A program made the position numbers and the translations under genes. Positions 36,162-37,468 of a stretch of 64,000 nt of DNA are shown here, piece by piece (position 1 is the stretch's first letter; each line of letters starts with the position of its first letter). This DNA is from Actinopolyspora saharensis (GTDB lineage Bacteria; Actinomycetota; Actinomycetes; Mycobacteriales; Pseudonocardiaceae). The stretch is taken from positions 806,001-870,000 of the forward strand of contig NZ_FNKO01000002.1 of the NCBI RefSeq assembly GCF_900100925.1, in the 5' to 3' direction. Below the pieces are notes generated by a model that was not told the origin of the DNA, did not search any database, and saw only the letters and a list, made by a program, of their open reading frames with translations.

Positions 36162-36190
36162 TTGGCCGAGGAGGCGTCGGCGAGTACAAT
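36162..36190 (+). promoter_or_regulatory. Sigma70-like promoter directly upstream of the heptanucleotide repeat
   Basis: TTGGCC (36162-36167), a 17-base spacer and TACAAT (36185-36190) form a near-consensus vegetative promoter. Transcription would start near 36197, at the first bases of the 7-base repeat tract. Such a good match is rare in this GC-rich window. The downstream gene start is 144 bases beyond the promoter start. Confidence 0.6.
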
Positions 36191-36197
36191 GTGGACG

Positions 36198-36318
36198 GAA
36201 CCGCGAACCGCGAACCGCGAACCGCGAACCGCGAACCGCGAACCGCGAACCGCGAACCGCGAACCGCGAACCGCGAACCGCGAACCGCGAACCGCGAACC
36301 GCGAACCGCGAACCGCGA
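36198..36318 (+). repeat. Perfect heptanucleotide tandem repeat, unit GCGAACC, 16 copies
   Basis: Sixteen perfect copies (36203-36314) with a partial unit at each edge. Seven is not a multiple of three, so any copy change shifts reading frames across the tract. Read through, the tract is open in the frame of the following gene and would encode TANREPR repeats. Slipped-strand changes are expected in such arrays. Confidence 0.95.
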
Positions 36319-36340
36319 TGATCCCTGGGCAACCGCACCC

Positions 36341-37468
36341 GTGCGCAGGCGGGTGCTCGGGGTGGTCCGCAACCTGACCGCCCTGGACCGGCTGGCCGAC
36401 GTGCTCACGGTGCTCGCCGACGACTTCCGGGTGGAGACCCGGTTCACCCACGCCGCCGGTTCGGAGTTCGACGCCGACCTGTCCGGGCACTTCCGCCGCG
36501 CCGGGATGCACGTGGTCCCGTGGTCGCAGGCGTGCGGGCGGAACTTCGACCTGGCGATCTCCCCCAGCGGCAACGGCGCGCTGCACGAGCTGGACATGCC
36601 GGTGCTGACCCTGTCCCACGGCGCGGGCCACCACAAGCACCTCCCCTCCGGGCGGGGTTTCGGCCCGGAGGTGGCCGGGTTGGCGCACGAGCAGCTGGTG
36701 CGGGACGGCAGGGTCGTGCCCTCGGTCGTGTGTCTGTCCCACCGGGACCAGTTCGAGCTGCTGGCCCGCGAGTGCCCGCTCGCCAAGGATCGGGCCGAGG
36801 TGGTCGGGGACCCGTGCTTCGACCGGCTGCGGATCAGCACGCCGTCGCGGCAGAGCTACCGGAACTCCCTCGGGACCGGCGACCGCGAGCTCGTGCTGCT
36901 GGCCTCCACCTGGGGGCCGCGGGCGCTGTTCGGCCGCGCGCCGGAGCTGGCCGCCGATCTGGTGGACGCGCTGCCCGCGCGGAGCCACCAGGTGGCCCTG
37001 GTGCTGCACCCCAACGTCTGGGCTCGGCACGGCCCCTGGCAGATCAGGCAGTGGACCGATCGCGCCCGGCAGGCGGGGCTGGTGCTGGTTCCGCCCGAGC
37101 ACGGGTGGAAAGCCGCTCTCGTCGCCGCCGACACCGTGGTCTCCGACCACGGATCGCTGGGGATGTACGCCGCCACCCTGGGGAAGCGCCTGCTGCTGGC
37201 CGAGTTCGGCCACCGGGAGGTGGTGGCGGGCACGCCGCGGGAGGAGCTGGGCAGGCGCGCCGCCTACCTGGAGCGCGACCGTCCGCTGCGCGAGCAGGTC
37301 GAGCGGGCCGCTCCGGTGGCCGGGCACGCCGAGCTCGTGAACGCTGCTTTCGCGCGGCCCGGAGGGGCGGCGAGCGCCCTGCGCAGGGTGATCTACGAGC
37401 AGCTCGGGCTCGCCGAGCCCGCCTGGCGGGCGGTGGCGCGCCCCCTGGATCCCTTCGTCCCCGAGTGA
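36341..37468 (+). CDS. GT-B fold glycosyltransferase-like / CDP-glycerol transferase-like protein
   Basis: The 375-residue protein begins RRRVLGVVRNLTALDRLADVL, resembling the N-terminal half of GT-B glycosyltransferases. The middle has LTLSHGAGHHKHLPSG and CLSHRDQF. The C-terminal half has a PEHGWKAALVAADTVVSDHGSLGMYAATLGKRLLL segment like the donor-binding region of CDP-glycerol glycerophosphotransferases and UDP-GlcNAc 2-epimerases. It probably decorates a surface polymer. GTG 36341 is the first start after the repeat; GTG 36353 is an alternative, and GTG 36191 or GTG 36131 would put the repeat into the protein. No strong ribosome site is visible. Confidence 0.62.
   Translation: MRRRVLGVVRNLTALDRLADVLTVLADDFRVETRFTHAAGSEFDADLSGHFRRAGMHVVPWSQACGRNFDLAISPSGNGALHELDMPVLTLSHGAGHHKHLPSGRGFGPEVAGLAHEQLVRDGRVVPSVVCLSHRDQFELLARECPLAKDRAEVVGDPCFDRLRISTPSRQSYRNSLGTGDRELVLLASTWGPRALFGRAPELAADLVDALPARSHQVALVLHPNVWARHGPWQIRQWTDRARQAGLVLVPPEHGWKAALVAADTVVSDHGSLGMYAATLGKRLLLAEFGHREVVAGTPREELGRRAAYLERDRPLREQVERAAPVAGHAELVNAAFARPGGAASALRRVIYEQLGLAEPAWRAVARPLDPFVPE

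Follow-up and report, generated by a model that had tools for sequence, protein, structure and literature searches.

A candidate repeat-switched gene with a seven-base tandem array in Actinopolyspora saharensis and its actinomycete relatives

Does a perfect 7-bp tandem array at the 5′ end of an Actinopolyspora saharensis gene act as a mutable switch of that gene, or does it tune a leader, drift as a passive minisatellite, or encode a useful peptide? Simple-sequence-repeat contingency loci are known from Haemophilus, Neisseria and Campylobacter, where they often concern surface-structure genes, and repeat-driven phase variation has mostly been studied in host-adapted pathogens. The array discussed here lies in a 64,000-nucleotide stretch of contig NZ_FNKO01000002.1 (“the window”; coordinates are those of the window), inside an open frame at 36131–37468 on the forward strand, and is flanked by a GGDEF (diguanylate cyclase-like) gene upstream (34601–36094, forward strand) and by a domain without a Pfam family. 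A GGDEF gene likewise precedes the frame in the remaining Actinopolyspora loci and in most of the Saccharopolyspora loci that were compared. Comparison of the homologues makes it quite probable, we believe, that this array serves as a mutable switch in a contingency, or phase-variable, gene. An earlier note on this DNA had proposed such a locus, and three observations support it: the array is kept in all ten members of the genus, its unit counts there fall into all residues modulo 3, and homologues with an internal array are found in both ON and OFF frames.

The array comprises 17.3 perfect copies of GAACCGC (or GCGAACC, depending on where the unit is begun) at 36198–36318 on the forward strand, from direct reading of the sequence and from Tandem Repeats Finder, which gives it 100% matches and the top score among 15 rows for the window. 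The 16 perfect GCGAACC copies at 36203–36314 of the earlier note are thus a slight under-count of an array that is real and perfect. It is the sole array in the window in a scan for periods 4–12 with at least 3.5 units and for homopolymers of at least 9. The same genome, sampled over 400 kb, has three arrays only, 4- and 6-mers of 3.5–3.7 units, and no comparable 7-mer array; the exact trimer of the unit occurs in the 4.68-Mb genome at this locus alone. Translated in the ON frame, the array gives repeats of the heptapeptide ANREPRT.

Two promoter-like sites, both of them pattern matches, lie ahead of the array on the forward strand. The first (P1) is a −10-like box, TAGGAT at 36118–36123, read by eye, which precedes GTG 36131 by 7 nt, a leaderless-type spacing; the second (P2) is TTGGCC-17-TACAAT at 36162–36190, with TACAAT at 36185–36190 ending 7 nt before the array. 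A consensus scan of 36000–36400 picked up P2 only and not the P1 box (shuffled sequences gave a mean of 0.0), so that the sigma70-type site ahead of the repeats in the earlier note is confirmed as a sequence match and is unique in this interval. Its start codons need more revision. GTG 36191 is indeed in frame and ATG 36189 out of frame, but neither is a likely start from P2, since they abut or overlap the −10 box and lie upstream of the predicted transcript start; GTG 36191, abutting the box, was set aside. The gene start at 36341 has become doubtful and was put behind, because five of the ten genus orthologues have GTA at that position; the other five, the window included, have GTG, and in these a start behind the array is possible. 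The gene likely starts upstream of the array, at GTG 36131, rather than at 36341, giving a candidate phase-variable gene of 445 codons (36131–37468, forward strand) whose frame continues through the array and on into a GT-B-fold domain (the conserved part being 36341–37465).

The array is found at the same place, with 7-bp units, in 10/10 Actinopolyspora genomes examined, with TACAAT 3–8 nt ahead of it in each. Its length is anything but constant, which had been named as a test of the proposal: 17.3, 6.6, 14.3, 12.3, 17, 14, ≈18 (across an N gap), 4, 10.6, and 14.7 units, so from 4 to about 18, with all three residues modulo 3 represented among the whole-unit counts. Copy number varies among close relatives, the clearest pair being L005 and L008 (L-numbers denote loci, L001 being the window), with 17 versus 4 units in genes that are 97.6% identical and belong to different species, not strains. 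The unit itself also changes: L001 is about 92% identical to L002 and L003 (92.3% to L002), yet the units are GCGAACC and GGGAGCC, which implies complete turnover of the array since these lineages parted.

That the array is translated in this genus is suggested by what lies behind it. In none of the ten loci is there an in-frame start codon in the stretch that separates the array from the conserved domain, nor is there one within the array. The codons just behind the array (W-A-T-A-P in the window, 36326–36340, forward strand) follow a W-x-T-x-P pattern, and the six distinct genus versions show 40 pairwise differences at codon position 3, 17 at position 2, and 0 at position 1. They evolve like protein, and the array appears to be read as protein in Actinopolyspora; a promoter-only reading was put behind for the genus for this reason. 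Translation of the W-x-T-x-P codons would require ribosomes to come in from a start ahead of the array, and the frame would then depend on the number of units. The conserved tryptophan codon stands 15 nt ahead of the domain start in 45/48 loci of a smaller family-wide set of 5′-array loci and in 55/61 of the whole set.

The starts that matter are probably the TAGGAT-linked GTG or ATG and, in relatives, an ATG shortly behind TACAAT. A TA[GT]GAT box followed after 7–8 nt by ATG or GTG is present, by eye, in 7/10 Actinopolyspora loci, while in L006 and L008 the TAGGAT-type hexamer and its start codon are both altered; an ATG 4–6 nt behind TACAAT is present in 6/10. Four genomes have both starts, and in all four the two differ in frame, although these represent two layouts (L002 with L003, and L005 with L007) and not four independent cases. 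In L001–L003, the GTG abutting TACAAT has the same frame as the first, TAGGAT-linked start. Read in this way, the gene is ON from the first start in L001, L003, L005, and L009, and ON from the second start in L002, L008, and, if its N gap has the right length, L007; L006 and L010 are out of frame from the recognised starts, and in L004 no start in the frame of the gene can be recognised ahead of the array. Out-of-frame reading from recognised starts terminates 34–80 nt into the domain. The OFF genes nevertheless do not look decayed: dN/dS is 0.05–0.21 between close genus pairs, OFF members included (0.053 for L006 with L008), so purifying selection is seen across both ON and OFF frames.

The proposed mechanism would run as follows. 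Replication slippage would add or remove 7-bp units, and, because seven is not a multiple of three and the array is apparently translated as the N-terminus, each change would bring an upstream start into the reading frame of the enzyme or take it out. The genome of the window would be ON, with GTG 36131 in frame behind its TAGGAT box. In relatives with a second start behind TACAAT, in another frame, gain or loss of units would take the gene in turn through three states, ON from the first start, ON from the second, and OFF; the layout of two leaderless-type starts in different frames suggests such a three-state switch in Actinopolyspora. Elsewhere in the same gene family, an internal loop would serve as the alternative site for a like switch.

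Of 61 relatives, 30 have the gene, all ten genus members among them. It is present in 87/150 genomes of the family Pseudonocardiaceae against 9/148 drawn from the class, and is thus frequent within the family and scattered outside it, with members in some Streptomyces, Nocardia, Nonomuraea, and Kribbella genomes. A wider scan for homologues used an alignment of six sequences, and the 80 loci taken from it, the best 80 of 351, lean towards in-frame genes; ON/OFF counts were therefore taken first from the 61-genome search (50 loci). Overall, 215 loci gave 181 distinct homologues after 32 duplicates and 2 loci without an N-terminal match were dropped, near relatives remaining in the set. Arrays were sought with periods 4–12 and as homopolymers, units of 2 and 3 bp being checked separately.

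Arrays occupy one of two sites: 62 of the 181 homologues have a 5′ array (site A), 34 an internal array near codon 101 (site B), none both, and 85 neither. Units not divisible by 3 make up 101/102 arrays and 67/68 of the 5′ arrays; the sole multiple of 3 is the 9-mer of L108, which was left out of the start-codon and −10 hexamer counts below. Site A has periods of 7 (39 arrays), 8 (22), and 1 (4, poly-C), with one array each of 5, 9, and 11; site B has 7 (31 arrays) and 8 (3). Units of 2 or 3 bp turned up at neither site in the family set. In the flanks of the same loci, 652 kb in all, there are seven arrays, of which one has a 7-bp unit. The earlier note called this kind of locus rare in actinomycetes: arrays are in fact common in this gene family (96/181 homologues), while the family itself is patchy, as the 9/148 class-wide genomes show. 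From these sequences, it looks like a repeat-switched actinomycete gene family, and the window protein is not matched by any model of Pfam or NCBIfam.

An assembly may give the wrong number of units, and in several contigs the array coincides with a break or with N. Long arrays are not merely a product of fragmented assembly, since they occur in single-contig genomes, with 54 five-base units in L182 and 32 seven-base units in L184. Two loci of Nocardia cyriacigeorgica, L077 and L080, have the same 8-bp unit in 17.0 versus 6.2 copies, both numbers being lower bounds since both contigs begin at the array. Three further within-gene arrays (7, 4, and 6 bp; in L036, L218, and L233) stand outside the 102; L036 has two ACCGGAA arrays about 100 bp apart, at gene nucleotides 300–395 and 495–589, with both halves of the gene in the same frame.

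Site B is the clearest switch in the gene family, as far as reading frames can tell. Among the 50 loci of the 61-genome search, nine genes have a site B array, four of them in a single frame (ON) and five frame-split (OFF); in the whole set, which is biased towards in-frame genes, 26/34 are in frame, 6 are split, and 2 could not be assigned. The 85 genes without a listed array include one split gene, L163, which has 3 units at site B. None of the seven split genes has a stop within its matched halves, and dN/dS is 0.05–0.32 with pairs that include an OFF member. The mutual exclusion of the two sites is marked when counted by gene (Fisher p 1.2e-7) and fades as relatives are clustered: p is 3e-5 at 75% identity, 0.0003 at 65%, and 0.40 at 55%, where one cluster contains genes of both array types. 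The exclusion statistic is not the main support for the phase-variable reading.

The closest precedent for a different role is the pair hmw1A/hmw2A of Haemophilus influenzae, in which, according to PMC8262952, the hmw1A heptamer array lies just behind the −10 box of P2 and more units lower expression. On that model, the array would be the untranslated 5′ leader of a P2 transcript, and copy number would alter promoter output or RNA structure, as the earlier note had allowed when it suggested that the repeat could tune the leader; as an account of the locus as a whole we regard this as rather unlikely. Much of the layout does resemble that of hmw1A/hmw2A as described there, with 7-bp units at a −10 box and two promoter regions near the array. 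An array directly behind a −10 box is found in 10/10 genus loci, and a TAnnnT hexamer with at least four of six matches to TATAAT stands within 22 nt before the 5′ array in 32/53 testable loci family-wide (22/43 outside the genus), compared with 0.7% of random positions, which are mostly coding DNA, and, as a second control, 2.6% of the windows taken ahead of homologues that have no 5′ array. With such a hexamer just ahead of it, the 5′ array often starts near the expected transcript start. For the array as RNA (36197–36400), folding predicts a single long stem (z −3.3 relative to shuffled sequences), although the centroid structure leaves the array open. An in-frame start lies behind the 5′ array in 31/61 loci of the whole set (22/48 in the smaller set); frame switching does not follow in those 31 loci, and in them the array may act as a leader. 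Leader tuning is thus possible for other genera. It fits Actinopolyspora poorly, where the stretch from the array to the protein-like W-x-T-x-P codons contains no start codon and where, unlike the untranslated leader of hmw1A/hmw2A in PMC8262952, the array is apparently read through; and the avoidance of multiples of 3 in 67/68 5′ arrays is needless for tuning.

Two explanations remain. A neutral minisatellite, prone to slippage but regulating nothing, in an N-terminal extension that the protein could do without, would agree with the tolerance of N-terminal extensions for length change and with the 85/181 homologues that have no array, yet multiples of 3 are avoided, the array is conserved in presence despite turnover of its unit, internal arrays break a folded domain, no gene has both sites, and purifying selection continues; we consider it very improbable. 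Hardly credible at all is a peptide linker, in which copies would be selected for the heptapeptide repeat itself: the ON-frame array does encode such a repeat, but the peptide differs among relatives (ANREPRT versus GSREPGA), and, since unit counts fall into all three residues modulo 3, some relatives read it out of the frame of the domain. A frame-switching array remains the reading that we prefer for Actinopolyspora and for the site B homologues.

What the gene would switch is probably an enzyme that makes or decorates a cell-envelope glycopolymer, judging from the predicted structure. The AF2 model of the product has a pLDDT of 92.6, and its fold, a GT-B fold of the TagF type, matches UDP-GlcNAc 2-epimerase and TagF with 9–18% identity. 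The family differs in this from the TagF/TarL CDP-polyol transferases (Glyphos_transf) and the non-hydrolysing UDP-GlcNAc 2-epimerases, and Pfam returns no family for the window protein, which does not reach the gathering score of Glyphos_transf (PF04464). That profile matches 1 of 46 relatives (E 2.4e-4) and nothing in the genome of the window; hhalign to one member gives E 0.003 at a probability of 10%. PADLOC and NCBIfam have no match for the 46 family members, and no solved structure was found by sequence. Some homologues (L011, L012, L067, L072, L106, and others) have an extra C-terminal segment of about 140–210 residues that the window protein lacks; that of L011 has no Pfam match.

The gene also has a recurrent partner. 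Convergent to it in the window, at 37574–39679 on the reverse strand (start chosen by eye), lies an NLR-like gene in whose product NB-ARC and TPR domains are both detected. Relatives of this protein occur in the flanks of 103/135 loci: for the 133 loci with a mapped gene start, they are downstream and convergent in 88, upstream in 14, and absent from the 1.5–3 kb flanks in 31. The same query found nothing in a 400-kb sample of the genome of the window, a control from this one genome when larger genomes hold more such genes. The GT-B gene and the NB-ARC/TPR gene are recurrently paired. The N-terminus of the NB-ARC/TPR protein in the window has NAVQAAHIG, which by eye resembles bacterial amyloid-signalling motifs, and a VQA-type motif was seen by eye in 13/14 N-termini with a P-loop fitting the pattern, most loci giving no fit. 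Small upstream proteins ending in VQARDI-type motifs are found at L012, L014, and L091, in a BELL-like layout, those of L014 and L091 having no Pfam match. In the window, one regular expression found no adjacent effector with the same motif; the expression misses the motif of the window's own NLR too. Against PADLOC mad8, the convergent gene gives a weak match (E 3e-4) over residues 74–130, the ATP-binding part.

These features recall the BASS/BELL NLR systems of PMC7889193: an NB-ARC/TPR neighbour with an N-terminal VQA-type motif and, in some loci, a short gene upstream whose product has a VQARDI-type motif at its C-terminus. The difference is the recurrent partner, here a GT-B-fold protein, which goes unmentioned in section 9 of that paper. 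A speculative possibility, to which we give limited credence, is a two-gene module in which a repeat-switched envelope glycosyltransferase is convergent with an amyloid-motif NLR. Phase variation of the enzyme, with the three-state switch in Actinopolyspora, would make the mycelium a mosaic of different glycan states, which the NLR would police or would turn to use against phages. The pairing itself offers a testable link from phase variation to bacterial immune-like signalling.

With the contingency loci of Haemophilus, Neisseria, and Campylobacter, the family shares an array at the 5′ end of or inside a gene, a unit not divisible by 3, and ON and OFF frames; it differs in being actinomycete, in its mostly 7- and 8-bp units, in two alternative homologous array sites never occupied together in one gene, and in its NLR-like neighbour. 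The actinomycete system of PMC6625227 is likewise one of repeat-mediated phase variation, but it is another system and involves a homopolymer tract. We recognised no description of this gene family, or of repeat-driven switching in it, in the open-access literature searched, and found no paper there on phase variation with Actinopolyspora. If the phase-variable reading is right, environmental, multicellular actinomycetes would also diversify clonally at a set locus, and in this family an annotated gene start, or a label as pseudogene, may reflect how long the array was in the isolate that happened to be sequenced.

Elsewhere in the window, Tandem Repeats Finder rows include a 27-bp repeat at 54279–54375 (3.6 copies, 98% match), its period a multiple of 3, and two overlapping arrays of 16-bp units at 60078–60155 (2.5–2.8 copies). 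The segment at 44001–46000, in which GC falls to 0.583 against 0.64–0.74 in the rest of the window, is possibly acquired.
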